From the NCBI GenBank assembly GCA_028869255.1, contig CP110972.1, positions 2,175,001 through 2,239,000 on the forward strand: a DNA stretch of 64,000 nucleotides. Reading direction: 5' to 3'. A program made the translations under genes and the position numbers. The notes beneath the pieces are model-generated. The model was given only the letters and a program-made list of their open reading frames with translations, did not search any database and had not been told where the DNA came from. Numbering within the stretch: position 1 is the stretch's first letter; the number at the start of each line of letters is the position of its first letter. Origin of the DNA: Pseudomonas poae. GTDB lineage: Bacteria; Pseudomonadota; Gammaproteobacteria; Pseudomonadales; Pseudomonadaceae. This document shows, in pieces, positions 45,176 to 62,750 of this stretch.

Positions 45176-47724
45176 CTAGAACTCAACACGCACGCCCAGC
45201 GTTGCGTCGCGGCCGTTCAGTGCGTGGCTGTCCAGGTTGCGCATGTAGCCCACCTCGCCATACAGATTTACGCCGTTGGCGACCTGCAGCCTGGCGCCGA
45301 GGTTCAGGCCCAGGGTGGTGGATCGTTGCTCGGTGTCGATGGCGGTCACATCGTTGAACGTCACGGTGTTGGTCCCGCCCTTGGCGTGCCACACATCGGC
45401 CCGCACATAAGGCTGCAACGGCAAACCGCGCACCGGGTAGCTGCCGCGCAGTCGCACGCCGAGACGGGTGACGAGGTTGCTGTCGGCGGTAAAGGCAACG
45501 TCCGCGATGCCGTCATTGCGGCTATCGAGTTGCGTGCGACCGACGATCAATTGAGCCTGGGGCTCAAGCTCCCAGCGTGGGCTCAGCGCAAACGGCCAGC
45601 CGACTTCGGCGGAGGCCAGCAGGTTGTGCCCACGGGTCTGCAACTGGATGCCCGGGGCGGACCGGCTGCTGCCATCGAAGCGGGTGCCCATCAGCACCAG
45701 GTCGAGGTAGGCGCGGTGGGTGCCGATCAGCGTCCAGTACACGCCCAGGCTGTCGCCACGCAAGGTGGTGCGGCCGGCGTGCTGGTTCTGCCGGCCAGCG
45801 TTAAAGCCTTTGACGTCGCCTTTGAGGGTGCTGTGGCCGATAAAAAAACCACCGCGCTGGCGCCGACTGGCGTACACATCGCTGCCCACTTGGAAGCCGG
45901 TGATTGAGCTGTCCAGTGTCGGGCTGACCGTGCCGGCGAAGGACTGGCGGCGGCTGCTGCCATACACCCGGCCCCAGCCCGTCGGCAAGGTACCGCTATA
46001 GTGTTGCGTGCCGGGCTCACCCATGCGTTGGTGATACGTCCCCAGCATGCCTTGCACAATCTGTTGCGCGGCCGGATACAGCGCGGTGTAGAGCGGTACT
46101 TCGGGGCGGTAAAGGGGGAGCGGGGAAACGTCGGGGTTGGGCGGCAACGCTGGTGAGCCGCTGACGGGCTCAGGCACGGGCGGGTCAATCACCTGGGGCG
46201 CAGGCGCAACAGGCAGCGTGGAGCGCAGGTAATAGTTTTGCGCCGTGCCGGCCGTTACGCCGCCCTTGAACAGGTAATAGTCGAACGCGCCGGCAGACAC
46301 GCGCCCCGCCAGGCTGAACGCACTGCTGCTGCCGGTGGCGCCGTTGCTGGCCTGCACCACTTGGATACCGTCCTGCAACGTTGCCGCGCCCGCGCCGCCC
46401 AGGTTGCTGATGCGGATCCCTGTGGCGCCCTGGAGCGTGCCCTGGCTGACCACCAGTTTGTCGCTGGGCGAGTCGTCGCTGCCCAGCACGCTTTGCAGGG
46501 CCAGGAGCCCGGTGTTGCCGGTGTAATTGCCATTGACCGTCAGGGTGTCGGTGGCGAGGGTGCTGCCGGTGGCCATGTCGATCAGGCCGCTGTTGTTGAG
46601 GTTAACCGCCTGGCCACTGCTGAACGGGCGGAGGAGGCCGGAAGTGACTCGCAAGGTGCTGCCGTTATTGATCGCCAGCGTGCCGGACCCCGTGCCCGCA
46701 TCGCCGAGCACGAAGCTGCCGCCCAGGGTTACGGTGGCGTTGTTGCTCAGCGCCACCCGTTCCCAGTGGGCGTAGCGCCCCGGCGTATTGGTCTGGGAAT
46801 TGTCGAAGGTCAGGGTGTCGGTGCCGGTGCCGCCATCGATCAGCGGTGTGGAGGCCAGCAGGGTTTCGTTAAGGTTTTGCAGCAGGGCGATGTCGTTGTC
46901 CGGGCCCAGTAGAATCGGCGCATTGATTTTCCCGCCGCCGATCCAGCTGAAGGTGTCTGCGCCGGTGCTGGCGAGGATCTGCCCGTTGACGGTGCCGCCC
47001 GTGACGGTAATCGTGTCAGTACCGCCGCTGGTACTGAGGTTGCCGCCGATCAAGCTTGCGCCCGACACCCGCACGGTATCGTTGGCAAAGCCGGTGACCA
47101 GGTTGCCGATGATTGTGCCGCCCCGCATGTCGAAAAGGTTGTTATCCAGCTTCATGTCCACTCGGCCGATGCTGCCGCCCGTCATCAGCGCGGTATCGCC
47201 ATCCTCGAAGGCGCCGGTGATGGTGCCGCCACTCATCAAGAACTGATCGTGCCCGTCGCCCTGGGCCAGCGCGGCAATCGTACCGGCGCTCATGGAAAAA
47301 CTGTCGATACCGGCACCCTGGCTGATCGCCCCCGCGTTGCCGCCGCTGATCTGCACCGCATCCGCTCCCGCCCCTGGCTGAGCGCCCCGGTGACGGTGCC
47401 GCTGTTGAGCCGCAATACATTGGCGCCATCCCCCATGTTCACTGAGCCAGTGAGCCTCGCGGCCATTGCGTCCAATTGCAGCAGGTCATTACCGGCTCCC
47501 AAGGTGACATTGCCGGTAATGGAGCCGTTGCCGCTGGGGAACAGCAGCTGATTATTGCCCCCAAGGTCACTGAAACCCGGGCTGCTGCCGCTGTCACAGG
47601 TGAAGGTGTCATTGCCGGCGGTGGGGGCGATGTTACAGGCCCCGTGGGACGGCAATGGCCAGACGCTGAGAGCGATTGCCGTGGCAACGCTCACGTAGCA
47701 CTGGCGTGGAATCCGTGTGTGCAT
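45176..47724 (-). pseudogene. Type V autotransporter, frameshifted
   Basis: Corrected product 849 residues. Start MHTRIPRQCY with signal peptide (to SHGA, about 29). The passenger is a repetitive beta-helix with SGGTITG/GNL-type repeats (GTVTGALSQG, GGNAGAISQGAGIDSFSMSA, LMSGGTITGAFEDGDTALMT). The C-terminal 260 residues are the autotransporter barrel ending LGVRVEF. The frame breaks at the C4 run 47371-47374, where one missing base separates RLNSGTVTGALSQG from VQISGG. Adding one base restores AGADAVQISGG exactly. Either a fresh mutation or a sequencing error. No functional domain recognised in the passenger. Confidence 0.8.
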
Positions 47725-47981
47725 GATCCAACCTCGTTCGAGGGGATTGTTGCCCCGGCGCCTGCTGCGGCGGGCGGGGCCAGACCATGACAACGGGATG
47801 CGCGATACGGATCAGGGAGAGCGTGTTACCTGTTCGAAAACACCGGCCAATGCAAAGGGTTGGCATGTCTTTCTCGACTGCGCTTCAACTCATGCAGTGC
47901 TTGAAGCACCATAACCACGCCCGGCGGAGGTCGCTACTGTGAGAAATAACACGTATAGACCAGTTGAAAGCCTGGCTAACC

Positions 47982-48743
47982 TCAGGACAGTACAATCTCG
48001 TAAGGCTCGCGCATGCGCTCCAGCAGCACCTGGGCCAGCATCGGCGCGAGGCCGATCTGCGGGTCGCCGACCAATTGGCTGGCATACGCATGCACGGCGT
48101 GGAGCTTGCGGGCCACGCTCCAGGAGTCCAGCCGTACTTTGCGCGCACGTTGCCAGGGGATCAGCGCACCGTCGCGTACCGGCGAGTGCCAGGCCCAGAT
48201 CGGCAGTTCATACAGCTGCGCGCCCACCAGGTTGCAGGCTTGGGCGCTGGCCCGGCCGACGGCGTCGTGGTCGTCATTGCCGTCGTGGCGCCAAGTGGAA
48301 AACACCACATCGCCCGGCTGCAGGTAGCGTGCGATAAATTGGCTCATCTGCGGTTCGCGTGCGGCGAGGGCGTTATCGCAGAAGCCGCCGCGAATCCACT
48401 TCAGGCTGTGCAGCGGCATGCCCAGGCGGCGCAGGGCTTCGGCGCTTTCCTGGGGGCGCACCACGCTCAGGCGGCTGGCCGGCCATACATGCGAGCCCGG
48501 ATGGCTGGCGCTGCCGTCGGTGATGGAGATCAATTGCAGGGGGTGTTCCAGGGTGCTGAGCAATTGCAGCAGACCACCGCAGGCCAGCACCTCGTCACCG
48601 GGATGGGGGGCGACGATCACCACCCGTGCGCCAGACGGGACCAGTGCGGCCGGCGTGATAGGGGGGATCTGCGCCAACTGCGGGGCACTGTTCCAGATTT
48701 GCGCAGGACCACGGCGGCCCTCGCTTAAGGAGGCAAGCTTCAT
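47982..48743 (-). CDS. PIG-L family deacetylase paralogue with altered active site
   Basis: 253 residues from MKLASLSEGRRGPAQIW. PIG-L/LmbE fold with LQLISITDGSASHPGS and SVVRPQESAEALRRLGMPLH, very similar to the PIG-L protein at 50173. The zinc motif reads PHPGDE (H47, G49, D50) where active members have HPDDE, so the catalytic base Asp is Gly; the later motif reads GNDDH where the paralogue has GHCDH. Zinc ligands are kept. May be weak, inactive or altered in substrate. Start 48743 has AAGGA upstream. Follows the GT2 gene by 177 bp, the only long gap in the cassette. Confidence 0.85.
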   Translation of the reverse strand: MKLASLSEGRRGPAQIWNSAPQLAQIPPITPAALVPSGARVVIVAPHPGDEVLACGGLLQLLSTLEHPLQLISITDGSASHPGSHVWPASRLSVVRPQESAEALRRLGMPLHSLKWIRGGFCDNALAAREPQMSQFIARYLQPGDVVFSTWRHDGNDDHDAVGRASAQACNLVGAQLYELPIWAWHSPVRDGALIPWQRARKVRLDSWSVARKLHAVHAYASQLVGDPQIGLAPMLAQVLLERMREPYEIVLS

Positions 48744-48920
48744 GGGTGTCACATCCTTGTCGATTGATGCGGGTCGTGCCCCGTTGACGGGACGACTCTC
48801 TTTTATTCCCCACAGACTCCGCCGTGGGGGTTGCGTGGCAATCCAACCCTGGATTGCCAGCAAGGCGTTATCAGCATAGACAAGGATCGGCTGCTTTTAC
48901 ATTCGGCAACGTCGTTTTTT

Positions 48921-49580
48921 TCAGGAGGCGAGTGTCAGGCTCTTCAAATAATCGCCAAACCCGCCTTGAGCACGCGCTTGCAGACGTGCGCTGGTGATGA
49001 CTTGCGGGGTATGGCTCCAGGCGATGGACGCGCCGCAGCGTTCCAGGCTGCGCACCAGTTGCACATCTTCGTGACAGGCCAGCGGCTCAAAACCGCCGGC
49101 GCGCACATAGGCGCCGGCACTCACACCGAGGTTGGCGCCGTGGATATGGCGGTGGCCCTCACGCGCCTCGTACGCCTGGTGATAGCGGATCTGCGCGGCC
49201 GGGTCGAAGTCTTCGCTCCAGGCGTCCACGGTCACCGTGCCGCAGACGGCGTCGGCCTCCAGTGCCAACTGGGCCACCAGCCAATCGGGGGCCACGCGGC
49301 TGTCGGCGTCGGTGCAGGATATCCAGCGGGCGCCCTGGTTGAGCAGGTGCCGTGCGCCGACTCCACGCACCTGGCCCACATTGCGCGCCTGGATTTCCAA
49401 GCGTTGTACCGGGAAATCTTCGGCAATCGCCGCGCTCGCGTCGCTGCAACTGTCGAGCATCACCAGGATCTGCACCGGCTCGCCCATTAACTCCGGGTGG
49501 TTGGCCGCAATCAATGCGGCTTTCAGGCACTCGCCCAATAGCGCTTCTTCGTTGTGCACCGGGATCAGAATGCCGATCAT
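48921..49580 (-). CDS. Glycosyltransferase family 2
   Basis: 219 residues, GT-A fold only, no membrane segment. MIGILIPVHNEEALLGECL start, VMLDSCSD at the nucleotide site, metal-binding CTDADSRVAPDW, and acceptor side RAGGFEPLACHEDVQLVRSL. Transfers a sugar from an NDP-sugar, acceptor unknown. The start overlaps the methyltransferase stop by 4 bases. Confidence 0.9.
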   Translation of the reverse strand: MIGILIPVHNEEALLGECLKAALIAANHPELMGEPVQILVMLDSCSDASAAIAEDFPVQRLEIQARNVGQVRGVGARHLLNQGARWISCTDADSRVAPDWLVAQLALEADAVCGTVTVDAWSEDFDPAAQIRYHQAYEAREGHRHIHGANLGVSAGAYVRAGGFEPLACHEDVQLVRSLERCGASIAWSHTPQVITSARLQARAQGGFGDYLKSLTLAS

Positions 49581-50176
49581 CGCAGGCCCTCAAGGGTGGC
49601 GACCGAGGTGCCGTCGCGGCTCCAGAGGTCGAGGAGAAAGTCGTGCTCGTGGTGCCTGGCGACCAGGGGCATCGCCAGCCGCTCATGGAGCAAGGCGTGC
49701 ACCTGCTCGGCGGTCTGCGGGCAACCTTCGATAGACGGCCGCCAGTGGCAGGCCAGCACCTGGCCGTCACTGGTCAGGCAGGCGAGGGCGCGATCGATCA
49801 CGCGGCCCAGGTCATCGGCGTCGAGGTAGTAGCACAGCTCGCTCAGTACGATCAGTTCGAACTGGCCCGCCGGCCATTGTTCAGGCAAGCGGCTTTGCTG
49901 CACCTGGGCATGGGCAAAACCCAGCAGCCGCCCACGGGCCAGGTCCACAGCGGCCGAGGCGGTATCGCAACACAGCAGGCGGTCACAACGGGTGGCCAAC
50001 TCGATACTGAGTTCACCGTTGGCGCAACCGGGTTCGAACACCGAGGCATAGCGCGGGCGGGTCAACATGGCCAGGGTCAGCGCACGTTTGCGGCGCTCAT
50101 ACCAGCGTTGTCGGAACGCCCAAGGGTCATCGTTATCGGCAAACAGTTGATCGAAATAAGGCGTTGCCACACTCAT
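49577..50176 (-). CDS. SAM-dependent methyltransferase (NodS-like)
   Basis: 199 residues. Motif I VFEPGCANGELSIELATRCD, acidic end of strand 2 LLCCDTAS, and motif IV FELIVLSELCYYLDADDLG. The N-terminal YFDQLFADNDDPWAFRQRWY matches the NodS group, where NodS N-methylates a deacetylated glucosamine of Nod factor. Beside a PIG-L N-deacetylase and a glycosyltransferase, N-methylation of a freed amine is a reasonable inference. Four-base overlaps on both sides. Confidence 0.88.
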   Translation of the reverse strand: MSVATPYFDQLFADNDDPWAFRQRWYERRKRALTLAMLTRPRYASVFEPGCANGELSIELATRCDRLLCCDTASAAVDLARGRLLGFAHAQVQQSRLPEQWPAGQFELIVLSELCYYLDADDLGRVIDRALACLTSDGQVLACHWRPSIEGCPQTAEQVHALLHERLAMPLVARHHEHDFLLDLWSRDGTSVATLEGLR

Positions 50177-50931
50177 ACAAACACCACTTCAAAAGGTTGC
50201 AGCAGGCGTTCCACCACATAGGGCGCCAGCACCGGTGGCAGGCCGATCTGCGGGTCGCCCTCCAACTGGCTGGCGAACGCATGGATGGCGTGGCGCTTGC
50301 GGGCCACCGCTTCACAGGTCAGAGGGATTTTGCGTGCGCGGTGCCACGGCACCTGGCTGTCTTCGGGTGAGGCCCAGTGCCAGGTCCATACCGGCAGCTC
50401 GTACAGGGTGGCGCCTGCTGCGTGTGCCGCCTTGGCGCTGGCGCGGCCAACGGCTTCATGGTCGCAATGGCCGTCTTCACGCCAGGTGGTGAACACCACG
50501 TCAGTGGGTTTGAGGTAGCGCTGGATAAACGCGGCCAGTTCGTCTTCCCGCGCAGCGACTTGGCTGTCGGTAAAACCTGCGCGCAGCCATTTCAGGCTGT
50601 GCAACGGTAAACCGAGGCGATGCAGAGCCTGCGCCGATTCCTGCGGGCGTACCACGCTCAAACGCTCCACCGGCCAGCGTTTGGAACCGGGGTGGCTGGC
50701 GCTGCCGTCGGTTACCGAAATCAGTTGCATGGGTCGCCCCAATGCGGCCAAGCCTTGCAACAAGCCGCCACAGCCCAGCACTTCGTCGTCCGGGTGCGGG
50801 GCGATGATCACGGCGCGATGGCCGTCGGGCACCAGTGCTTGAACGCTGATCTGCGGCAGCTCGGCCATCATCGATGAGGCCTGCCAGTGGTGCAGCGGCG
50901 TACCCTGGCCAACAATTGGATTGGGCTTCAT
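50173..50931 (-). CDS. PIG-L family deacetylase
   Basis: 252 residues from MKPNPIVGQGTPLHHW. Intact zinc/catalytic motif APHPDDEVLGCGG (H46, D48, D49) and EDGHCDHEAVGRA, as in MshB and PIG-L enzymes that remove acetyl from N-acetylglucosamine-type substrates. Cytoplasmic. The start overlaps the upstream dehydrogenase-like stop (ATGA). Paralogue of the gene at 47982. Confidence 0.9.
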   Translation of the reverse strand: MKPNPIVGQGTPLHHWQASSMMAELPQISVQALVPDGHRAVIIAPHPDDEVLGCGGLLQGLAALGRPMQLISVTDGSASHPGSKRWPVERLSVVRPQESAQALHRLGLPLHSLKWLRAGFTDSQVAAREDELAAFIQRYLKPTDVVFTTWREDGHCDHEAVGRASAKAAHAAGATLYELPVWTWHWASPEDSQVPWHRARKIPLTCEAVARKRHAIHAFASQLEGDPQIGLPPVLAPYVVERLLQPFEVVFV

Positions 50932-51926
50932 AACTGCCACCTCCCAGCGGGTTCAGCGGCGACCCGTTCGCCGAGGGCCGCCAGGTCACGTTCGGCGTGG
51001 CTTTGGCGCACATACACCGGCAGGTCCGCCATCAACTGGGCAAAGTGCGGGTCCTTGCAATACGGGCCAGCGCCCACGGCACGCCCCACATGGTGCATCA
51101 CCTGTTCAACGGCATCTTCGATACAGGCCCGGGCTTGCTGGGCGAGTTGCCTGGCATTGGCCTTGGGTTCGCGGTCGATTTGCTCCGCGCTGGCACGCAG
51201 CACACAGGCCGCACTGTTGAGTGCACTGTCGACGGCGCCAAGGTGGGCGAGAGCATGCGGGTCCGAGCGTTTGCTGCAGTGTTCACGCAGCACCTCGGCC
51301 AGACGTTGCGCCGCGCCGTACCAGCACGCGGCGATGCCGATACCGCCTTGCCAGAAGCCGGGGCGGGCGAGGTAGTCGCCGGGGCCGCCCACCGCAATGG
51401 CGCCGGCGCCTTCAAATATCACCTCTACGCTGCCGGTGGCGGCCATGCCCACAGCATGCCAGCCCTGGTCAGTCACCGTGACGGCGGGTTGGTCCATCTG
51501 CACCGCGACCAGTTGCTGGCAACCCTGTTCATCCCAGGCCGTCAGCAACCCGTGGCTGACCACCGCGGCGCCGGAACACCAGGCTTTACGCCCCTCAATC
51601 AACAGGCGATGACCTTGCTGGCGTACCTGCACTTTAGCGTTCGGCGGCTCAGCCGCCCACATGCCCCAGGTGCTGCCCAAAGGCGGCAGTGGGCTGCCAA
51701 GTTCGGCAATGATCGCCAAGGCGTCGGTATGCCCTTCGAACAGCTTGCACAAGCGCAGGTCATGGCCTGCCACCTGTGCCAAGCGGCTGAACCGCGCCAG
51801 TGTTTCCCCGCCGCCAGGCAGCGGCAGTTGGTCCAGGCCTTCCTCCTGAAGTGCCTTCAGGGCTGTGCCCAGGGCTTGCGTGTCCGCATAGCCCGGGAAG
51901 CCTTGAAGGAATCCATGCAGTGCCAT
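50928..51926 (-). CDS. Acyl-CoA-dehydrogenase-like flavoprotein
   Basis: 332 residues from MALHGFLQGFPGYADTQALG, with GAGG before the start. Shows the acyl-CoA dehydrogenase layout: helical N-terminus (ARFSRLAQVAGHDLRLCKLF), beta-domain (GSTWGMWAAEPPNAKVQVRQ, LIEGRKAWCSGAAVVSHGLL) and C-terminal helices (WYGAAQRLAEVLREH, RAVGAGPYCKDPHFAQLMAD). Shorter than the usual 380, and no catalytic Glu is obvious, so it may oxidise a non-CoA or amine substrate. One base after the glgX stop and 4-base overlap with PIG-L. Confidence 0.82.
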   Translation of the reverse strand: MALHGFLQGFPGYADTQALGTALKALQEEGLDQLPLPGGGETLARFSRLAQVAGHDLRLCKLFEGHTDALAIIAELGSPLPPLGSTWGMWAAEPPNAKVQVRQQGHRLLIEGRKAWCSGAAVVSHGLLTAWDEQGCQQLVAVQMDQPAVTVTDQGWHAVGMAATGSVEVIFEGAGAIAVGGPGDYLARPGFWQGGIGIAACWYGAAQRLAEVLREHCSKRSDPHALAHLGAVDSALNSAACVLRASAEQIDREPKANARQLAQQARACIEDAVEQVMHHVGRAVGAGPYCKDPHFAQLMADLPVYVRQSHAERDLAALGERVAAEPAGRWQL

Positions 51927-51927
51927 G

Positions 51928-54087
51928 TCACACCTCTTCGTCACGCTGCAATTCAAACAGCAGCAGCGAGCGGCCGGTTACGGCGTACTCGTGATCAAAC
52001 TCGAAACGCTCCTGGCCACGTACTGCGGGCTCATTGGTGTCGAGCATGCAGGTCCAGAACTCACCTTCGGGCACCGGCGGCAGGCGGAAATTCACCATGT
52101 CGTGGTGGGCGTTTACCACCAGCAGCAGCGTGGCATCGGCACCGGCGCGGCGAATCCCGGTTTCCTGGGCGCGGCCATCCATCAACATGCCCAGGCAACG
52201 GCCGTGGCTGTCTTCCCACTGTTCGGTGGTCATCTCGTTGCCATCCGGCGCCAGCCAGGTCACGTCCTTCACACCGATATCTTCGTTGTAGTCGCCCACC
52301 AGGAAGCGGCCACGGCGCAGGATCGGATACGCCAGGCGCAGCTTGATCAGGCGTTTTACGAACTTGAGCAAGGCCCTGCCGTCGTCATCCAGTTCCCAGT
52401 TGACCCAGCCGATCTCGCTGTCCTGGCAGTAGGCGTTGTTGTTGCCGTGCTGGGTGCGGGCGAATTCATCCCCGGCCACAATCATCGGCGTGCCCTGGGC
52501 CAGCAGCAATGTGGCGAAGAAGTTGCGCATCTGGCGCAGGCGCAGTGCGTTGATTTCCGGGTCGTCGGTGGGGCCTTCGACGCCGTGGTTCCACGACAGG
52601 TTATTGTTGCTGCCGTCCTGGTTGTTCTCGTCGTTGTCTTCGTTGTGCTTGTCGTTGTACGACACCAGGTCGTGCAGGGTGAACCCGTCGTGAGCGGTGA
52701 TGAAGTTCACCGAGCTGTAGGGGCGACGGCCGCGATGGTTGAACATCTCGCCCGAGGCGGTCATGCGCCCGGCGAAGTCCGCGAGTTGGCCGTCATCGCC
52801 TTTCCAGAATGCGCGTACGGTGTCGCGGAACCGGTCGTTCCATTCCACCCAGCCCGGCGGGAAGTTGCCCACCTGATAACCGCCGGGGCCGCAATCCCAC
52901 GGTTCGGCGATCAGCTTGAGCTGGCGCAGCACCGGGTCCTGGCGGCAGGCCACGAGGAAGCTGTGGCGCTCGTCGAAGCCATCGCGGTAGCGACCGAGGA
53001 TGGTTGCCAGGTCGAAGCGGAAGCCGTCGACGTGCATCTCGTTGGCCCAGTAGCGCAGGGAGTCGGTGACCATTTGCAGCACGCACGGGTGGCTCAGGTC
53101 CAAGGTGTTGCCGGTGCCGGAGTCATTGATATAGAAACGCTTGTCGTCGGGCATCAGGCGGTAGTACGAGGCGTTGTCGATACCGCGCATGGACAGGGTC
53201 GGGCCGCGCTCGTTGCCTTCGGCGGTGTGGTTGTAGACCACGTCCAGGATCACTTCGAGCTTCTGCTCGTGCAGGTGCGCGACCATCTCCTTGAACTCGG
53301 CGATCTTGCCGCTGGCCAGGTAGCGCGGGTCGGGGGCAAAAAAAGCGATGCTGTTGTAGCCCCAGTAGTTGGTCATGCCTTTTTCCAGCAGGTGCTGGTC
53401 GTTGACAAAGGCGTGTACCGGCAGCAACTCCACGGACGAAATGCCCAGTTGGCGGATGTGCTTGAGCACGTCGTCTTCCATCAGACCGGCGCAGGTGCCG
53501 CGCACCGACTCGCCCACCGAAGGGTGACGCATGCTGATGCCGCGCAAGTGGGTCTCATAAATGATCGTGCGGTCCCATGGCACGCGCACCGGCTGGTCGT
53601 TGCCCCAGGTGTGCGCCGGGTCGATGACCTTGCACTTGGGCACGAACGGCGCGCTGTCGCGCTCGTCGAAGCTGAGGTCGTCATCGGGGTGGCCGATGGT
53701 GTAGCCGAACAGCGCTTCGGACCATTTAAGCTCGCCCACCAGCTGTTTGGCGTAGGGGTCGATCAGCAGTTTGTGGTGATTGAAGCGATGACCATTGGCT
53801 GGGTCATAAGCACCGTACACGCGATAGCCGTAAATCAGCCCGGGGTGGGCGTCGGGCAGGTAGCCGTGGAAAATCTCGTCGGTGTATTCAGGCAGTTCGA
53901 TACGTTCCAGTTCTACTTCACCGGCGTCGTCGAACAGGCACAGTTCGACTTTGGTCGCATTGGCGGAGAACAGCGCAAAGTTGACACCCAGGCCATCCCA
54001 GGTGGCGCCGAGAGGGAAGGGCAAACCTTCACGAATCCGCGACGGCTCGTTACCCGGCGTCGAAGGGGTTTTATGGGGTTTGCTCAT
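51928..54087 (-). CDS. glgX: Glycogen debranching enzyme
   Basis: 719 residues. Isoamylase-type CBM48 N-terminus (PFPLGATWDGLGVNFALFSA) and GH13 barrel with VILDVVYNHTAEGNERGPTL, nucleophile region VDGFRFDLATILGR, acid KLIAEPWDCGPGGYQVG and INFITAHDGFTL. Hydrolyses alpha-1,6 branches of phosphorylase-limited glycogen. Follows the DUF2934 gene by 122 bp and is joined to the downstream cassette by a 1-base gap, so they should share transcripts. Confidence 0.95.
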   Translation of the reverse strand: MSKPHKTPSTPGNEPSRIREGLPFPLGATWDGLGVNFALFSANATKVELCLFDDAGEVELERIELPEYTDEIFHGYLPDAHPGLIYGYRVYGAYDPANGHRFNHHKLLIDPYAKQLVGELKWSEALFGYTIGHPDDDLSFDERDSAPFVPKCKVIDPAHTWGNDQPVRVPWDRTIIYETHLRGISMRHPSVGESVRGTCAGLMEDDVLKHIRQLGISSVELLPVHAFVNDQHLLEKGMTNYWGYNSIAFFAPDPRYLASGKIAEFKEMVAHLHEQKLEVILDVVYNHTAEGNERGPTLSMRGIDNASYYRLMPDDKRFYINDSGTGNTLDLSHPCVLQMVTDSLRYWANEMHVDGFRFDLATILGRYRDGFDERHSFLVACRQDPVLRQLKLIAEPWDCGPGGYQVGNFPPGWVEWNDRFRDTVRAFWKGDDGQLADFAGRMTASGEMFNHRGRRPYSSVNFITAHDGFTLHDLVSYNDKHNEDNDENNQDGSNNNLSWNHGVEGPTDDPEINALRLRQMRNFFATLLLAQGTPMIVAGDEFARTQHGNNNAYCQDSEIGWVNWELDDDGRALLKFVKRLIKLRLAYPILRRGRFLVGDYNEDIGVKDVTWLAPDGNEMTTEQWEDSHGRCLGMLMDGRAQETGIRRAGADATLLLVVNAHHDMVNFRLPPVPEGEFWTCMLDTNEPAVRGQERFEFDHEYAVTGRSLLLFELQRDEEV

Positions 54088-54209
54088 GGAGTTGCTCCTG
54101 CAAAGGTCTTTTTTCAGGCCGAACGCGGCCTTGCTGACGAGAATTCAGCGGACAGTAGGGAAAAAGTGAAATCACCTCTTGCCGGCAGCGCCGGCAGGAG
54201 GCTTGAAGG

Positions 54210-54479
54210 TCAAGCCTTGGGCTTTTTCGGCGCCGCAGGCTTTTTAGCGGCCGGGGGCGCCGGCTTACTGGCTGCCGGCGCGGGTGGCTTGGCCTTGGCG
54301 GGCGGTTTGGGTGCGGTCTTGGGCTTGGCCGCAGCCTTGGGTTTGCTCGGCGTCAGGGCTTCGGCTTCCGCCAGCTTGCGCGCCATTTCCCAGTGTCGCG
54401 CATCCTCCCCATGGGGCTTGCCCTCAGATTCCCAGATCTGATGCGCTAACTCGCGTATGCGTTTGTCTTCAGTACTCAT
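54210..54479 (-). CDS. DUF2934 protein with Lys/Ala/Pro-rich tail
   Basis: 89 residues. Residues 1-45 are the DUF2934 helix pair (RIRELAHQIWESEGKPHGED then ARHWEMARKLAEAE), found in pseudomonads beside glycogen/trehalose genes. The rest is a low-complexity basic tail of K, A and P (KPKAAAKPKTAPKPPAKAKP), like histone H1-type tails, possibly nucleic-acid or polyanion binding. GAGGAG lies before the start. Function unknown. Between treY and glgX. Confidence 0.88.
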   Translation of the reverse strand: MSTEDKRIRELAHQIWESEGKPHGEDARHWEMARKLAEAEALTPSKPKAAAKPKTAPKPPAKAKPPAPAASKPAPPAAKKPAAPKKPKA

Positions 54480-54502
54480 CGCAATGCTCCTCACAGAAAA
54501 TT

Positions 54503-57253
54503 TCAGCTTTCTTGATCATCAGGATTGATAAAGACATTGACCGGGAAATCCCCCAGGGCAGTGCTGATCAACAGCTCCTTGTCTGGTGTGACTGCGCCTG
54601 TGTGAAAAAGTCCCTTCCAGTTTTGGGTTGACGCGGCGAACGGTAATTTCACCCGTGTATCGCCCCAAACCTGCGCATTGATCTGGGGATGCACACCGTT
54701 TTCAAGCAGCTGCAACGGCCAGCGCGGGACCACCACCAACAGGCGTTTGCCGTGGTGCTCGCGGCAGAACGCGAGCACCCGCTCGGCGTGTTGGCCCACC
54801 ACTTCCAGTGGCGTATAGGTGCCGCTGCGAAACAGCTCGGGATCGGCCTTGCGCAAGGCCAGCACCTGGGCAATCAATGCCTGTTTGATGCGCCCGTCAC
54901 GCCAGTTGAACAGCAGCTCGCCAATGTCCGGTGGGGTTGCCAGCGCGTGTTGCCGTGCGTTGAAATCCACCGGGCGCCGGTTGTCCGGGTCCACCAGGCT
55001 GAAGTCCCAGAACTCATCGCCCTGGTACAGGTCCGGTACACCCGGCACGGTGATGCGAAGCAAGGATTGCGCCAGCCCGTTGAGGGCGCCGGCCGGGGCA
55101 ATGGCCTGGGCGGCGTTGCCGATGGCGGTGCGTAACGGGCGGCCCTCCTCACTGAGCAACAGGCGTGAGAGAAAGCTTTCGACGCCTTGTTCATAGGCTT
55201 CGTTGGGCGCGCTCCAGCTGCTTTGCAGCTTGGCTTCACGCAAAGCTTTTTGCTGCCACTGCCACAGGCGTTGCTGGTAGCCCTCGAAGTCATCCGCCTG
55301 GTCCAGCGGCCAGCTGCCCAGCAGCACTTGATAGAGGATCAGTTCATCACCGGCCGAGGGGCTGTCGGCATTGCTGCGCAACGGCGCGGCGAGGCTGCGC
55401 CAGTGCTCCACTTGTTTGGCGTACCACGGCGCGCACTCACTGAGCACCGCCAGGCGCGCACGCGTGTCTTCACCGCGTTTGTGGTCGTGGGTGGCAGTGG
55501 CCAGCAGGTTGTCGGGGAAGGCTTGCAGGCGCTGTTGGTTGACCGCATGAAACTCGGCCAGCGGCGCGCTGAACTGCTCGGTACTGAAGCCTACATCGTT
55601 GCGCGACAGCAGCACCGCCGAGCGATAGAACGCGGTGTCTTCCACGGCCTTGGCGGCAGCCGGCGACGTCAATTGCTGGAAGCGCACGCAGGCATGCTTG
55701 AGGATCTTGCGCTCGCGGCCCACCGGGCGCTCACGCCAGGGCTGGCCGCCGAGCCAGTTTTCGAGGTGCTCAAGCACCGGCCAGTCGCCTTCGCCGAGGG
55801 TGCTGCGGGCGCCGTCCAGGGCTTGCTGGAACACCTTGTCGTCGGCCGCGCTGCGGCCACGGGCGCTGATATAGGTGCGGTACACCGGGAAGTGCACGAT
55901 CAGCTCCTGCAGGGCGCGGCGGATCGCACCCAGGGTCAGGTCGCGGGTCATCACATCATCACGGGCCACTTGCAGCAGGGCCTGGGCCACACTTTCAAAA
56001 TCCCCGCCGAGGGAGCCGTTGAGGATCTGCTGGCGCGCCAACCGCGCCTCTTCGATAAACGCCGACGGCCGTTCACTGTGGCGCGTCCACAACTCGGCGA
56101 GCGGCGCAAAGCCTTCAGGGTTGTGTTGCAGCAGCGACAGCTGGTTCATGAATTCGTAACCGGTGGTGCCGTCCACACGCCAGTCTTCGCGCAGCGTCTC
56201 GCTTTCGCCAAGAATCTTTTCGACGAAAATCGGCAAGTGCCGCTCGGGGGACAGCGAATCCACGCGGCGCCGCAGCTTGCGGCAATACCCCCGTGGGTCG
56301 GCCAGGCCGTCGATATGGTCGATACGCAAGCCGTCCACCAGGCCCTCGCTGATCAGTTCGAAAATCTTGCCGTGGGTGGCTTCGAACACGGCGCTGCGTT
56401 CCACGCGCAGGCCGCCGAGTTCGTTGACATCAAAGAAGCGCCGCCAGTTGATATCGTCCGCCGCCGTGCGCCAACTGGCGAGGCGATAGGCCTGTTGCTC
56501 GAGCAACTGATGCAGGCGCTTGAAACCCTCGGGGTCGCGCCCGTCGAACTCGCCCAGGCGGTGTTCGATGGCGGGCAGCACTTCGGTCGCGCGTTCGGCC
56601 AATACCTGCTTGAGCCAGGCCGCTTCGGCGTAGGCATCGTCCTGATAGGCAAGGGCGCTGAAGCGGTCGCCTAGGGGCTTGAGCCGCTCATCACTGCCCA
56701 GGATCAGCGCGTAATCACGCGGGCAGATCGGGAAGCGGTGTTCGTAATGCTCGACGTAAAACGCGCCATGCTCGGCGTCGAAATGCAGGGTCAGCGTGCC
56801 GGTTTGCAAGGCTTCGCCGTAGTCGCTGCCGAGGAACGGCATGAGCAATTGGCCCTTGAGCAACGGGTCGGGCGAATGCCACTGGATGTCGAAAAACTCG
56901 CTGTACGGGCTTAAACGGCCCCATTCCAGCAGGTCCAGCCACCAGGGGTTATCGGCACCGCCCACGGCCATGTGGTTGGACACGATATCCAGGATCAACC
57001 CCATATCGTGTTCACGCAGGGCGCCGACCAGGCGCCGCAAGGCTGCTTCGCCGCCCAACTCCGGGTTGACGCTGGTGGGGTCGACCACATCATAGCCATG
57101 CATCGAGCCCGCACGGGCGCTGAGCAGAGGGGAGGCGTACAGGTGGCTGATGCCCAGTTGGGCAAAATACGGCACCAGGGGCACCGCATCATCGAGGGTA
57201 AAACCTTTATGGAATTGCAGGCGCTGGGTAGCGCGCAGGGGCAGTACGTTCAT
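54503..57253 (-). CDS. treY: Maltooligosyltrehalose synthase
   Basis: 916 residues. GH13 barrel with LRATQRLQFHKGFTLDDAVP, YFAQLGISHLYASPLLSARA, GLILDIVSNHMAVGG, catalytic LVDGLRIDHIDGLADPRGY and FVEKILGESETLRED. Converts the reducing-end alpha-1,4 link of maltooligosaccharides to alpha-1,1. Overlaps the malQ stop by 4 bases. Works with TreZ to free trehalose. Confidence 0.95.
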   Translation of the reverse strand: MNVLPLRATQRLQFHKGFTLDDAVPLVPYFAQLGISHLYASPLLSARAGSMHGYDVVDPTSVNPELGGEAALRRLVGALREHDMGLILDIVSNHMAVGGADNPWWLDLLEWGRLSPYSEFFDIQWHSPDPLLKGQLLMPFLGSDYGEALQTGTLTLHFDAEHGAFYVEHYEHRFPICPRDYALILGSDERLKPLGDRFSALAYQDDAYAEAAWLKQVLAERATEVLPAIEHRLGEFDGRDPEGFKRLHQLLEQQAYRLASWRTAADDINWRRFFDVNELGGLRVERSAVFEATHGKIFELISEGLVDGLRIDHIDGLADPRGYCRKLRRRVDSLSPERHLPIFVEKILGESETLREDWRVDGTTGYEFMNQLSLLQHNPEGFAPLAELWTRHSERPSAFIEEARLARQQILNGSLGGDFESVAQALLQVARDDVMTRDLTLGAIRRALQELIVHFPVYRTYISARGRSAADDKVFQQALDGARSTLGEGDWPVLEHLENWLGGQPWRERPVGRERKILKHACVRFQQLTSPAAAKAVEDTAFYRSAVLLSRNDVGFSTEQFSAPLAEFHAVNQQRLQAFPDNLLATATHDHKRGEDTRARLAVLSECAPWYAKQVEHWRSLAAPLRSNADSPSAGDELILYQVLLGSWPLDQADDFEGYQQRLWQWQQKALREAKLQSSWSAPNEAYEQGVESFLSRLLLSEEGRPLRTAIGNAAQAIAPAGALNGLAQSLLRITVPGVPDLYQGDEFWDFSLVDPDNRRPVDFNARQHALATPPDIGELLFNWRDGRIKQALIAQVLALRKADPELFRSGTYTPLEVVGQHAERVLAFCREHHGKRLLVVVPRWPLQLLENGVHPQINAQVWGDTRVKLPFAASTQNWKGLFHTGAVTPDKELLISTALGDFPVNVFINPDDQES

Positions 57254-59333
57254 CGGTCACGCTCATAGGCTTGGTTGCGCGCGACGGCCAGCAGTTCGAG
57301 GCGGCGGGCGGCGCCTGCGTTGTCGAGCAGGCTCGAAGCCTCGCCCGGCAGGCGGCGGCGCCAATTGGGATGGGTGTCGGTGGTGCCGGGCAGGTTGGCT
57401 TGTTCTTCAAGGCCCAGCGCGTCTTCCAGCGGCAGCAGCACCAGCGGCGCACGGGTGTGGCCCAGGTAGCGCACGCTGGCGTCGATCATATGGTCGGTTT
57501 CGTTGCGGATCTCTTCGACAAAATTCTGCGGGTCCTGGCTCAAGGCCTGGCGCAGGGCCTGGCGTTCGCGCAGGCGGTGTTCGCTCCATTGCTCCACGGT
57601 GGGCGCGTCGATCAGGCCGAGCTGGATATTCCAGTCGATATCGCGGCTGTGCCACCACCCATTAAGCGTGGGCAAGTCGTGGGTGCTGGTGGTGGCCAGT
57701 GCGTTATCCGGCCAGTCGAGAATCGGCTTGAACTGGCCATCGTGGCCCTGTTCGAAGAGCAGCACGCGCATGCCCAGAATCGAGCGGCTGATGAGTTTTT
57801 CACGCAGGCCGTCGGGTACTGTGCCGAGGTCTTCACCGAGTACGATGGCCTGGTGGCGGTGCGACTCCAGCGCCAGCAACCGCAACAGGTCGTCCACCGG
57901 GTAATACAGGTAGGCGCCCTCGCGAGGGGAGGCATCCATCGGGATCACCCACAGGCGTTGCAGGCCCATCACATGGTCGATGCGCAGGCCGCCGGCATGC
58001 GCGAAATTGGCGCGCAGCATTTCGATAAACGCGCGAAAGCCATTGCGCTTGAGACCTTCGGGGAGAACGCGGAGATCCCCCAGCCTTGGCCTGCACGGTT
58101 GAGAATGTCCGGCGGCGCGCCCACGGTCAGGTCGGCCAGCAGTTCATCCTGACGGCTCCAGGCCTGGCTGCCGCCGCCGTCGGCGCCCACCGCCAGATCG
58201 GCGATCAGGCCCACGCCCATGCCGCTGCCTCGCGCAGCTTGTTGGGCGCGTTCCAGGCTGCGGGCGATCAACCATTGGCCGAAAGCGTAAAAGCCGATTT
58301 CGCTCTGATTGGCTTCGGCAAACTCCACCAGCGCCGGGCTTTGTGGCGAGCGCCAGGCTTCGGGCCAGTGGCGCCAGTCAAGGTCTTCGCCCGCAGCGGC
58401 GCGGTGCGCCTGCACGGCTTCGAAGCGGCAGTGGTTTTCCAGGGCTTCGCCGCCGGCCTGGCGGAAACTCAGAAAGTCCGCATGTTGCGGATGCTGGCCG
58501 TGGCGGAAATCTTCGTACAAGGCGCGCAACAGGCGTTGCTTGGCCTTGGCGGCGGCAGGCCAGTCGATCAGGGTGTGCTGCTCCAGGGTGTGCAGCTCTT
58601 CGGCCAGGCCCAGGGCTTCAATCGCGTTGCGTACTTCGCGCTCGCCCAGAATGCACGCCGGCGAGGCATAGAGGCTGTTGAGGAACAAGCGGCTGGAGGG
58701 GGAGTACGGGCTGTAGCGCTCGGTGTCGGCGCTGAACATCGCGTGCATCGGGCTGATTGCCAGGGCATCGGCTCCGCGTTCGGCGGCGGCACGCGCCAGG
58801 TGTTCCAGGGCGAGTGTGTCGCCGAAGCCGCCATCGCCCAGGCGGCGCAGTGCATACAGCTGGGCGCTCAGGCCCCAGGCGCGGGCCGGTTGGGTGTCTA
58901 CCGCTTCGGCCACGCTGTAGCAATGGGTGGGGGCGACGGCGAGGGTGAAGGTCTGGTCGTTGATATGCACCTGGTGATAGCCCAGGGCAATGACGCCCGG
59001 TAGCACCGCGTCGCCATCGAGGCGCAACTCCAGGGTTTCGCCGTTTTCGAGGTTGACCCGGCACAGGGTGTCGGGTTCGAAATAACGCGCCAGGTCCAGG
59101 CCAATGCTGGTCTCGACCGTCATCAAGGGTGGCAGGTGTTTGTCTTGTTGCACCTGCTCCAGTTCCAGCAGGCTGGCGTCGATCTCGGCATCGGTGTCGG
59201 CCGGGTGGCCCAGGCCTTTGAGGACGGCGCGCAGGGCGTCGGGTTTCACTCGTTGCGGGCGGCCGTTTGCGTCGATCCAATCGACGGCCAGGCCCGCTCG
59301 GCTGGCGAGGATTTCCAGGTTCGCTTCGCTCAA
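57250..59333 (-). pseudogene. malQ: 4-alpha-glucanotransferase, frameshifted
   Basis: Corrected product 694 residues. First frame from 59333: MSEANLEILASRAGLAVDWI, ARAWGLSAQLYALRRLGDGG, ADALAISPMHAMFSAD. It fails at the four-base G run 58060-58063 (GWGISAFSP then nonsense), and the second frame resumes with LRANFAHAGGLRIDHVMGLQ, IVLGEDLGTVPDGLRE and TTSTHDLPTLNGWW down to 57250. One added base restores SPEGLKRNGFRAFIEML. Rearranges maltodextrins for TreY. Four-base overlaps with treZ and treY show an operon. The single lost base may be a sequencing error, in which case the gene is intact. Confidence 0.9.
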
Positions 59334-61075
59334 GGGTGCTCTCCAACAGGGAATAGGGTGACGCGTGCGCTGTACGGCGGCAGGTTGGCGCCGTGGTCGG
59401 CAGGCGTTTGGAACAGGACATGCGCGGTCGCCGGGTGCTGCAGCGCGATGGCGCTCAGGTTCAGGTCGATCTGCAACAGGCTGCCGTCGCCCAGGCGCCA
59501 GCGTGCACTCACGGCCGCATCGCCAAGCACCTGCGCGCCCAGTGCCATGCTGCCGGGCAGCCGCGGCACGATGTGGCGATGGCGCAGGCTCAACAGTTGG
59601 CGGTAGAGCCGGGCGTGCGGGGTATCGGCAAAGGACGGCGCCGACTGCTCAAAGGTCGTTAGCGCGTTGGGGTCGGGAATGCGTTCGCGTCGCTCGGGGT
59701 CCTTGAAGGCGGCAAAGTCGGCAAACTCATCGCGCCGGCCTTCACGGACCGCCTCGGCGAGTTCGCCATGGTGGTCGGTGAAGAACAGGAAAGGTTGCTC
59801 GGCATTGACCTCATCGCCCATAAACATCAATGGGATCATCGGCGACAGCAGCAGCAGGGCGGTGGCGGCCTCCAGCGCCTGGGGCGGGCAGAGCTGGTGC
59901 AGGCGCTCGCCCATGGCGCGGTTGCCGATCTGGTCGTGGTTCTGCAGGAACGCCACAAAAGCCGTGGGCGGCAGGTCGCCGCTCGGCTCGCCGCGCGCAT
60001 GGCCGTGACGGGTGGTGTGCCCCTGGTAGATAAACCCTTCGCCCAGGCAGCGGGCGAGTTTGGCGGTGGGGTCTTCGGCGAAGTCGCTGTAATAGGCATC
60101 GGTTTCGCCGGTCAGCAACACGTGCAACACGTTATGAAAGTCATCATTCCATTGCGCGTCGAAATCGTGCTTGAGCAGGCTTGCCTGGTTCAGTTCGTTC
60201 TCCAGCACCAGCCACACATGCCGGCCGATATCCACCTGCTCACGCACGCGATGCGCCAGTTGCTGCAGGAACCCCGGGTTGTCGATGGCGTGCACCGCGT
60301 CCAGGCGCAGGCCGTCGAAGCGGTATTCGAGCAACCACATCAGCGCGTTATCGAGGAAGAAGTCCCGCACTTCACGGCGTTCGAAATCAATCCCGGCGCC
60401 CCAGGGCGTGTGCACGTCTTCGTGGAAGAAACCTGCGGCGTACTGGCCCAGGTAATTGCCATCAGGGCCAAAGTGGTTGTAGACCACGTCGAGGATCACG
60501 GCCAGGCCGTGTTCATGGGCGCTGTCGATCAGATGCTTGAGCTGTTCGGGGGTGCCGTAGGAAGACTGCGGCGCATACGGCAGCACGCCGTCATAGCCCC
60601 AATTGCGTTCGCCGGGAAATTGCGCCAAAGGCATCAGTTCAATCGCGGTGACGCCCAGCTCGGCCAGGCGTGGCAGGTGTTTTTCAACGTTGGCGTAGCC
60701 CCCCAGCGCGCCCACGTGCAACTCGTAGATCACCGCCTCATGCCACGGGCGGCCTTGCCAGGCGGTATGCCGCCATGGGTAGGCGAGCGGGTCGACCACC
60801 AGGCTCCAACCATGCACGTCCGTGGCCTGGGCCCTGGACGCGGGGTCGGGTACATCCATTTCTCCATCGATGTTGTAGCGGTAGCGAGTGCCCGCAGGGC
60901 ACTTCACTTCTGCCTCGAACCAACCCTCTGCCTGAGGCAGCATGGCGACTGATTTACCACCTTCCAATTCAACGCTGACATAAAACGCGTCTGGCGCCCA
61001 CAAGGCGAAACGCGTGTGTTGCGCGTCCAGCATGATTGCGCCGTGGGGCCAGGTTTCCAGAGTCCGTAACGGCAT
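59330..61075 (-). CDS. treZ: Maltooligosyltrehalose trehalohydrolase
   Basis: 581 residues. CBM48-like N-terminus (RFALWAPDAFYVSVELEGGK), GH13 barrel with AVIYELHVGALGGYANVEKH, VILDVVYNHFGPDGNYLGQY, nucleophile FDGLRLDAVHAI, acid WLVLENELNQ and FLQNHDQIGNRA. Cuts the alpha-1,4 link next to the trehalose end made by TreY. 19 bp after glgA, 4-base overlap with malQ. Confidence 0.95.
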   Translation of the reverse strand: MPLRTLETWPHGAIMLDAQHTRFALWAPDAFYVSVELEGGKSVAMLPQAEGWFEAEVKCPAGTRYRYNIDGEMDVPDPASRAQATDVHGWSLVVDPLAYPWRHTAWQGRPWHEAVIYELHVGALGGYANVEKHLPRLAELGVTAIELMPLAQFPGERNWGYDGVLPYAPQSSYGTPEQLKHLIDSAHEHGLAVILDVVYNHFGPDGNYLGQYAAGFFHEDVHTPWGAGIDFERREVRDFFLDNALMWLLEYRFDGLRLDAVHAIDNPGFLQQLAHRVREQVDIGRHVWLVLENELNQASLLKHDFDAQWNDDFHNVLHVLLTGETDAYYSDFAEDPTAKLARCLGEGFIYQGHTTRHGHARGEPSGDLPPTAFVAFLQNHDQIGNRAMGERLHQLCPPQALEAATALLLLSPMIPLMFMGDEVNAEQPFLFFTDHHGELAEAVREGRRDEFADFAAFKDPERRERIPDPNALTTFEQSAPSFADTPHARLYRQLLSLRHRHIVPRLPGSMALGAQVLGDAAVSARWRLGDGSLLQIDLNLSAIALQHPATAHVLFQTPADHGANLPPYSARVTLFPVGEHP

Positions 61076-61094: not shown

Positions 61095-62647
61095 TTATTT
61101 AGTCGACTTCCCCAAAGCCTTGGCCACCAGTTGTTCGTACAGTTCGGCGTAGGGTTCTACCGCCTGGCACCAGTTGAAGGGTTGGGTCATGGCTCGGCTG
61201 CGCATGGCGTTGAGCAAGCCTTTGTTGTCGAATACGCGAAGCGCACGGCTCAGCGCTTCTTCATAACTTTCTACCGTGGATTCATTGAACAGGAACCCGG
61301 TGACGCCATTTTCGATGGTGTCCGCCAGCCCGCCGGTATTGCGTGCAACCGGCAGCGAGCCGAAGCGCTGGGCGTACATCTGGCTCAGGCCGCAAGGCTC
61401 GTAGCGCGAAGGCATCAGCAGAAAATCGCTGCCGGCGAACATGCGCCGAGCATCGGTTTCGTTGAAGCCGATGCGCACGCCCACCTGGCCCGGGAAGCGC
61501 AGTGCGAGTTCGCGCATGGCTTGTTCTTCTTCCGGTTCGCCGCGACCGATGATGGCGATCTGGCCACCGTGTTCGACGATAAAGCTGGCCACCGCTTCGG
61601 TCAGGTCCAGGCCCTTCTGGTACACCAGGCGTGAGACCACCGCGAACAGCGGGCCGGTGGAGTCATGCAGGCCGAACAGTTCGCGCACATGGGCGGCATT
61701 GACCGCCTTGCCTTCCCAGTCACCGATATTGAAGTTGTGGGTCAGGTGCGTGTCGGTAGAGGTTTCCCAACTTTCATCAATGCCGTTCGGAATACCACTG
61801 AGCAAGCCTTGCTGGGTCTTGGCGGCGAGGAAGCCGTCGAGGCCGCAGCCGAATTCCGGGGTGGTGATTTCCTGGGCGTAGGTCGCGCTCACGGTGGTGA
61901 TATGGCTGGAATACGCCATACCGGCCTTGAGAAACGACATCTTGCCGTAGAACTCCATGCCTTCCTGTTGCAGCGCGTGGGGCGGAATGCCCAGCTCCGG
62001 CGTGGAAGCCAGGCTGACCACGCCCTGGTAGGCCAGGTTATGGATGGTGAACAGGGTGGGCGTGCGTGACCCACGCCAGTGCATATAGGCAGGGCCAGGC
62101 CGGCAGGCCAGTCGTGGGCGTGCACCAGGTCCGGGCACCAGTGGATCTGGGCGAGGTTGGCGGCCATGTCGGCGGCGGCCAAACCCAGGCGGGCGAAGCG
62201 AATATGGTTGTCGGGCCAGTCGCGGCCGTTGTTGGCGCCGTACGGAGTGCCTTCGCGCTCATACAGCTCGGGGCAGATCAGCACGTAGATGACCAGGCCG
62301 TCCTTGAGGTCCATGCGCCCGATCTTGCACGGCGGCAACGCGGCATGGCCGCCCAGCTCACCAATAATGTGGATCGGGTTGTCGCTCTCCATGACCTGTG
62401 GGTAGCCCGGAATCAACACTCGCACATCGTGCAGGTGCGCCATGGCGCGGGGCAGGGCGGCGGACACGTCACCCAGGCCGCCGGTTTTCACCAGGTCAGC
62501 GAATTCGGAGGTTACAAACAGGACTTTCTTGCGATTTGGGTTATGACTAGGGACCGGCCGCACCGTGTTGAGGTCAACCAAAGAGGTCGACCCGCCAACT
62601 GGCTGACTAACACGCTCTCCCTGAATACTTGCAGCGGCACTGATCAT
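61095..62647 (-). pseudogene. glgA: Glycogen synthase, frameshifted
   Basis: Corrected product 517 residues from MISAAASIQGERVSQPV (GGAGAG before the start). First frame: ADP-glucose motif LVKTGGLGDVSAALPRAMAH (K54, G56, G57), then DLVHAHDWPAGLA. At the three-base G run 62092-62094 the frame shifts and continues in the second frame as YMHWRGSRTPTLFTIHNLAY, LVMPSRYEPCGLSQMYAQRF-like region (LLMPSRYEPCGLSQMYAQ) and RNTGGLADTIENGVTG to 61095. One added base restores GLAPAYMHW. First gene of the glg/tre train. The 50-residue N-terminal extension is longer than in E. coli GlgA. Confidence 0.9.
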
Positions 62648-62750
62648 AGTTCTCTCCACGTGTTGGTCGGCTAATGGCCCGCTGCCACTAGCTCCGAAGA
62701 CCGCATCCTGCGGCCAGGCGCACAAGCGCAATTACGCTCATTACATACTT

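Follow-up and report, generated by a model that had tools for sequence, protein, structure and literature searches.

What is made by the genes that stand directly behind a trehalose and glycogen operon in Pseudomonas poae? The stretch analyzed here (the window; 64,000 nucleotides, positions 2,175,001 to 2,239,000 of contig CP110972.1, assembly GCA_028869255.1) is part of a 6.8-Mb genome in a single contig and carries, on the minus strand at 47982..51926, a cassette of five genes downstream of glgX: an acyl-CoA dehydrogenase (ACAD)-fold flavoprotein, a PIG-L/LmbE N-deacetylase (PIG-L1), a NodS-like S-adenosylmethionine (SAM)-dependent methyltransferase (MT), a GT-A glycosyltransferase (GT) of Pfam family GT2, and a paralogue of PIG-L1 (PIG-L2). 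Our reading, in which we place an evenly balanced confidence, is that the cassette encodes a small-molecule pathway for drying, salt or oxidative stress, with glycosyl transfer, deacetylation, N-methylation and oxidation in that order, and that PIG-L1 was duplicated and PIG-L2 retained. These are known enzyme families in a set for which no description was found in the titles and abstract starts that searches of an open-licence library listed.

Consecutive deacetylation and methylation

The best supported part of this reading, on sequence comparison, is that deacetylation and methylation would be consecutive steps. The original prediction, made from the DNA letters alone, had named the families correctly: both PIG-L proteins match PF02585, the MT matches PF05401 (NodS) and the GT2 matches PF00535. 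NCBIfam cut-offs were reached by none of the five cassette proteins. From a scan of named genomes, which gave at least 600 stretches with 583 confirmed, the best 80 were kept, all from Pseudomonas and with flavoproteins 64 to 94% identical. PIG-L1 (50173..50931, minus strand; PF02585, 92.3 bits) has an intact APHPDDE...GHCDH motif, the LmbE pattern of HXD1D2 plus a further H; the first part reads APHPDDE in 80/80 of the named copies and the second GHxDH in 78/80, the other 2 being unreadable. Its best NCBIfam match was BshB1, and an identity as this bacillithiol deacetylase was rejected (52.9 bits versus a cut-off of 182.5 bits). The MT (49577..50176, minus strand; 199 aa) falls within the broader family PF05401 (51.3 bits versus a cut-off of 24 bits) and was rejected as the NodS equivalog NF041650 (55.6 versus 300 bits); a close solved relative, 4isc, is titled simply “Methyltransferase,” and the match to NodS was weaker.

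Natural protein fusions are the best evidence that the two steps belong together. A query in which PIG-L and MT of Kitasatospora were joined gave 658 matches, and among the best 120 of these, 104 were single proteins longer than 400 aa with PF02585 and PF05401 in their Pfam columns, as judged by eye, and the remaining 16 were PIG-L proteins; the ratio is an existence proof and not a frequency, because a joined query favors fusions. Natural PIG-L/MT fusions among these 120 came from, among others, Angustibacter, Kineococcus and Nakamurella. NCBI labels the fused proteins of Angustibacter and Kineococcus “bifunctional PIG-L family deacetylase/class I SAM-dependent methyltransferase,” a product name with no function or pathway attached. 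The Rubrobacter locus, for which the search detected no PIG-L, has a CE4 polysaccharide deacetylase (PF01522, NodB-type) directly upstream of the flavoprotein and MT genes. The succession of deacetylation and methylation proposed from the window alone thus gains support from both the fusions and this arrangement.

Recurrence of the gene set

The flavoprotein was found in 91/149 congeneric species (E 1e-40). Among the 80 named loci kept, of which those nearest to the window belong to Pseudomonas viridiflava, P. aylmerensis and P. graminis, it directly follows glgX in 79, the exception (L073) being a contig that starts at the gene; PIG-L1 and MT are present in 80/80, GT2 in 68/80 and PIG-L2 in 76/80. 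Of the 12 loci without GT2, two (L059 and L061) are on stretches that end there and ten retain PIG-L2. In L121 and L126 the cassette is joined to glgX, and PIG-L2 is absent. Gene order is maintained in the named Pseudomonas loci examined, and median ratios of nonsynonymous to synonymous substitution rates (dN/dS) are 0.09 to 0.13 for the five cassette genes (17 of the 80 loci); together, the kept order and low dN/dS argue that the cassette is not a chance assembly. Two divergent Pseudomonas loci, with flavoproteins 57 to 58% identical, have the order GT2, Nramp gene, flavoprotein, PIG-L, MT, and neither glgX nor an HPGDE motif was present in the 9 kb read; the junction with glgX therefore does not extend to the whole genus. 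The Nramp-type metal transporter between GT2 and the flavoprotein (L327 and L328) was rejected as a recurrent partner, because none turned up when the remaining loci were searched at E 1e-20.

Beyond the genus, the flavoprotein occurred in 23/299 genomes sampled across the phylum (E 1e-8), in 21/200, 30/120 and 30/149 genomes of three families picked for having matches (E 1e-15), and in only 6/369 and 5/289 genomes of an even draw across two classes, part of which had already appeared in the other samples. It was also found in 67 records of a plasmid collection, including Acinetobacter, Sulfitobacter, Paracoccus, Cupriavidus, Pandoraea, Comamonas and Deinococcus. In 107 non-Pseudomonas loci, the genes no more than 3 kb away from the flavoprotein included an MT (95 loci), a PIG-L (78 loci) and a GT (81 loci), with all three present in 60. 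Dropped before these counts were L027 and L028 (Pseudomonas), L144 (a second Acinetobacter locus with the same link), L270 and L274 (plasmid copies of retained ones) and L134 (a Methylobacterium plasmid with a lone flavoprotein); L139, an MT-GT2 pair with no flavoprotein, was outside the set from the start. The original prediction of a conserved functional set is thereby borne out, with gene order kept in the named Pseudomonas loci and the core recurring in other genera. Its proviso that order might not be conserved beyond close relatives applies in part, namely to the glgX junction: the 79 linked loci are the closest ones, the two divergent loci show no glgX in the 9 kb read, and 93/107 non-Pseudomonas loci show no trehalose or glucan gene within 10 kb or the shorter available stretch. 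Seven cassette loci (L029, L239, L243, L246, L267, L287 and L303) also have in their stretches the 2Fe-2S, FAD and Mo subunits of a molybdopterin aldehyde/xanthine dehydrogenase.

Linkage to trehalose and stress genes

Trehalose or glucan genes stand near the cassette in 14/107 non-Pseudomonas loci from 9 to 13 genera (two of the 14 with glgX alone), KatE in 17/107, and one or the other in 27/107; these are lower bounds, as 39/107 have less than 9 kb of available sequence to one or both sides. The arrangements differ: otsA-flavoprotein-PIG-L-MT-GT2-otsB in Comamonas antarctica; otsB-GH65-PIG-L-MT-GT2-flavoprotein in Legionella lytica; the cassette and a major facilitator superfamily (MFS) gene followed by otsAB on the opposite strand, with catalase adjoining, in Acinetobacter; and catalase with treZ-GT-flavoprotein-PIG-L-MT in Paracoccus. 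Same-strand OtsB-OtsA or TreZ-MalQ-TreY genes lie upstream in L033, L037, L035 and L247. Dps, PPK2 and PRC-barrel proteins were found near the cassette in single records, and a Cupriavidus glgE was left uncounted, the gene being cut by the stretch end.

Twenty random 20-kb windows from the same genomes gave 0 trehalose, glucan or KatE matches and 1 Crp match; these are too few for significance alone, and gene positions were therefore counted instead. The test covered 80 of the 96 cassette-bearing non-Pseudomonas genomes, with 16 genomes of an alphaproteobacterial family dropped and genome sizes rounded. Among the 129 OtsA and 72 TreZ genes in total of these 80 genomes, 4 OtsA (0.47 expected) and 3 TreZ (0.27 expected) lie within 10 kb of the cassette (7 versus 0.74 jointly; Poisson P 1.3e-5). 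The linkage is above chance, with the caveats that the links were known before they were tested and that related genomes are not independent. The association with trehalose and stress genes, first proposed from the window, thus recurs in other genera. Of the 5 full-length PF00982 matches with the lowest scores across the 80 genomes, 4 are the cassette-linked OtsA proteins of G196, G917, G294 and G074, each of them the sole OtsA found in its genome; the cassette-linked OtsA is possibly a specialized lineage.

The upstream order glgA-treZ-malQ-treY-glgX is the same as in the Pseudomonas trehalose/alpha-glucan operon that two papers tie to osmotic stress and leaf life (PMC8084333, PMC8982409). 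The operon deletion of the P. syringae paper spans glgA to glgX, the gene list of the P. aeruginosa paper stops at glgX, and the words “methyltransferase” and “deacetylase” are absent from both main texts, which concerns the texts and not the genomes of the strains (PMC8084333, PMC8982409). In P. fluorescens, treZ-glgX genes were lowered in an rpoS mutant (PMC6372562); by its locus tags that strain has seemingly only two genes between glgX and glgB, so the result says nothing direct about the cassette.

Remaining core enzymes and the proposed pathway

The flavoprotein (50928..51926, minus strand; 332 aa) had been labeled acyl-CoA dehydrogenase-like, and the match is real, yet under the Pfam cut-offs: PF02770 at 26.7 bits (cut-off 33.3) and PF00441 at 20 bits (cut-off 22.4). 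As regards the catalytic glutamate of acyl-CoA dehydrogenases, the PF00441 match ends at position 131/150, and by sequence alignment an Arg-Gln pair near the C terminus is invariant in 17 members. Profile matches to the PDB were led by the monooxygenases DszC and TdsC, followed by mixed dehydrogenases and monooxygenases including KijD3 and DnmZ. An AlphaFold model (predicted local distance difference test score [pLDDT], 84.4) has the ACAD fold, and its structural matches to monooxygenases and dehydrogenases were tied; the modeled structure would fit either class equally. An identity as SfnB was rejected (42.7 versus a cut-off of 430.9 bits). The Deinococcus flavoproteins (L128, 5898-8261; L129, 3193-5532) carry, fused to their N terminus, some 420 residues that match no Pfam family, and the gene of L143 (5899-8247) is of similar length. 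The GT2 (48921..49580, minus strand; 219 aa) exceeds the PF00535 cut-off (42.2 versus 23.3 bits) and has GT-A fold matches; for its model (pLDDT 79.2), the best structural matches were the fucosyltransferase WrtF and other GT-A enzymes, with mixed donors. It was rejected as the arsenosugar enzyme TIGR04283 (34.4 versus 182 bits).

From these assignments we infer a pathway in which GT2 would transfer an N-acetylated amino sugar, the best candidate acceptor being trehalose or a maltosyl-trehalose; PIG-L1 would then take off the acetyl group, the NodS-like MT would methylate the freed amine, and the flavoprotein would oxidize the intermediate or product. In fluorescens-group Pseudomonas, the cassette is joined to the glgA-treZ-malQ-treY-glgX operon and PIG-L1 was duplicated. 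PIG-L2 kept its metal ligands, lost catalytic residues and has been maintained by selection, and its role is presumably that of a partner, a regulator or a binding protein. The product may be an N-methylated amino-sugar glycoside and trehalose its acceptor or partner; the donor and acceptor of GT2, the oxidation by the flavoprotein and the order of steps are likewise our suggestions. In the N-methylated, glycosylated amine originally proposed as a stress product, the deacetylation-methylation pair and the association with trehalose and stress have held, and an active second PIG-L has not. That the cassette is a widespread mobile stress pathway, running from Pseudomonas and Acinetobacter to Deinococcus and Actinomycetota and leading to an N-methyl-amino-sugar derivative of trehalose or its pathway, with an active/inactive PIG-L pair in Pseudomonas, is unlikely to hold in so complete a form.

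Several observations weigh against this pathway. No MT lies within 3 kb of the flavoprotein in 12/107 loci, 5 of which lack MT, PIG-L and GT alike; GT2 is missing from several genomes guessed to be Burkholderiales-like and from ten Pseudomonas loci that keep PIG-L2 (in L100, with broken frames). A PIG-L1-like gene was not detected in 30/113 loci, 8 of which have a divergent PIG-L, 1 a CE4 gene and 21 neither in the stretch read. For 93/107 loci, no trehalose or glucan gene was detected within 10 kb or the shorter available stretch, and the caveats on the linkage test count on the same side. Sequence and models give no substrate for GT2 or the flavoprotein, and we know of no metabolite, transcript or enzyme assay for the cassette.

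A probably inactive second PIG-L

PIG-L2 (47982..48743, minus strand; PF02585, 71.3 bits) is 60% identical to PIG-L1 and reads HPGDE and GNDDH where the catalytic motifs should be. In the LmbE superfamily motif HXD1D2 plus H, D1 is the general base and three residues are metal ligands, and the change of His144 to Ala in MshB left no more than 1% of activity (PMC4101496). In PIG-L2, the D1 position is Gly in 76/77 open reading frames (ORFs) from 76 loci, the other being a 167-residue fragment that lacks the motif; the equivalent of His144 is replaced in 71/75 readable sequences and kept in 4, with 2 unreadable. The metal ligands H, D2 and H are retained in the PIG-L2 of the window, as aligned. 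In a 43-row tree, the 13 PIG-L2 rows form a single group (support 100/100) nested in a 28-row Pseudomonas PIG-L group (100/99, midpoint root). Median dN/dS (17 of 80 loci) is 0.108 for PIG-L2, 0.087 for PIG-L1 and 0.034 for GlgX. PIG-L2 as a second working deacetylase was rejected on motif loss, tree and selection; it is probably an inactive pseudo-deacetylase retained under purifying selection, and as a guess it might serve as a partner of PIG-L1, a regulator or a binding protein.

Known systems and alternative explanations

The core of Nod factor synthesis consists of the GT2 NodC, the deacetylase NodB and the N-methyltransferase NodS, and its product is an N-methylated and N-acylated chitin oligomer. 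The cassette likewise unites a GT2, a deacetylase and a NodS-family methyltransferase, and the Rubrobacter locus even has a PF01522 polysaccharide deacetylase; it differs in that its deacetylase, where found, is otherwise a PIG-L, its GT2 has only 219 residues, it adds an ACAD-fold flavoprotein and its NodS score is below the cut-off. KijD3 and DnmZ, which act on amino sugars, belong with DszC and TdsC to ACAD-fold monooxygenases and nitrososynthases; DszC and TdsC were the top profile matches, the group was among the best folds, and the ligand in the matched KijD3 structure agrees with an amino-sugar substrate. In contrast to these enzymes, with which it shares 15 to 19% identity, the cassette flavoprotein is shorter, its structural match is tied with true acyl-CoA dehydrogenases and the cassette lacks a flavin reductase. 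Mycothiol and bacillithiol synthesis (MshB and BshB; PMC4101496) resembles the proposed pathway in its PIG-L-type deacetylation following glycosyl transfer. It differs in that PIG-L1 is far below the BshB cut-offs and has no MshB match at E 0.001, in that the cassette adds an MT and a flavoprotein, and in that no MshC/BshC-type ligase was seen in the scanned neighbors or annotated regions.

The product might instead be a cell-envelope glycoconjugate or glycolipid head group, the trehalose genes being merely co-regulated stress neighbors. KatE, a GT4 and two more GTs stand ahead of the cassette in Sphingobium and Novosphingobium, with a similar GT order in L046, L302, L304 and L305; the Deinococcus cassette has a GT and a UDP-galactopyranose mutase nearby; and most loci have no trehalose genes in the available stretch. 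This alternative is a serious one that we nevertheless judge less than probable. No flippase, polymerase or lipid-linked transferase appeared among 12 scanned neighbor proteins (10 representatives of recurrent clusters and two others), although an ABC-transporter ATPase (20 loci) and an MFS transporter (6 loci) recur; the 219-residue GT2 has no membrane anchor visible by eye (no predictor was run), and trehalose enzymes are linked to the cassette more often than by chance. A protective redox compound that, like mycothiol or bacillithiol, is made by glycosyl transfer followed by PIG-L deacetylation, and that has an N-methylated, oxidized core, is improbable: BshB1 is the best NCBIfam match of PIG-L1 and KatE accompanies the cassette in the 17 loci given above, but the BshB1 cut-off is missed and no cysteine ligase of the MshC/BshC type is named in the scanned neighbors or annotated regions (one region being without annotation). 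The sole ligase of a related kind, a YbdK-family carboxylate-amine ligase (L138, 1-263), sits at the edge of the stretch from Legionella, some 7 kb away from the cassette.

It is also improbable that the product has no relation to trehalose and that the cassette came to follow glgX through one ancestral insertion in the fluorescens group. The two divergent loci with no glgX nearby and the majority of the other loci, unlinked in the available stretch, count in its favor, and the Pseudomonas linkage may be a single event; the 14 linked non-Pseudomonas loci, with OtsA and TreZ placed beyond chance, argue against it.

Gene layout and operon context

The minus-strand order is glgA-treZ-malQ-treY-glgX-flavoprotein-PIG-L1-MT-GT2-PIG-L2, and the predicted junctions were reproduced: glgX ends at 51928 and the ATG of the flavoprotein is at 51926, one base on; PIG-L1/MT (50176 over 50173) and MT/GT2 (49580 over 49577) overlap by 4 bases. 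The flavoprotein/PIG-L1 overlap of 4 bases holds with the in-frame ATG of PIG-L1 at 50931; the start chosen by the ORF tool, GTG 50940, gives 13 bases. A second PIG-L does follow GT2, its most likely start being ATG 48743, 177 bases beyond; with this gap, membership in the same transcript is less certain, and PIG-L2 may have its own transcription start. A sigma-70 consensus scan of 47300-54600 gave 0 sites and is uninformative, because only 1.1 were expected.

The upstream trehalose/glycogen operon was recognized correctly, with treZ, malQ and glgA confirmed by family models. All on the minus strand, it comprises the debranching enzyme gene glgX (51928..54087; TIGR02100, 1087.6 bits), the malto-oligosyltrehalose synthase gene treY (54503..57253; TIGR02401, 946.2 bits), malQ (57250..59333, two overlapping frames at 57969-59333 and 57250-58020), the malto-oligosyltrehalose trehalohydrolase gene treZ (59330..61075; TIGR02402, 680.7 bits) and glgA (61095..62731, two overlapping frames at 61889-62731 and 61095-62138). 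The split frames of malQ and glgA suggest assembly indels or decay. Of the MalQ ORFs in the named Pseudomonas loci, 72/74 fall in the 650- to 799-aa size bins. On the other side, an autotransporter gene (45176-47793, minus strand; PF03797, AC_1) adjoins PIG-L2; it apparently starts upstream of 47356 in a different frame, and 59/80 named Pseudomonas stretches contain a relative.

Implications

Although trehalose operons pass for well understood, those of many Pseudomonas species continue beyond glgX with four to five extra genes, and the same genes adjoin OtsAB and TreYZ trehalose synthesis elsewhere. A conserved inactive PIG-L paralogue, if confirmed, would be an apparently undescribed use of the fold; to our knowledge, no such use has been reported. 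If the cassette does make a trehalose-linked solute, it would represent an unseen chemical part of bacterial drying tolerance.

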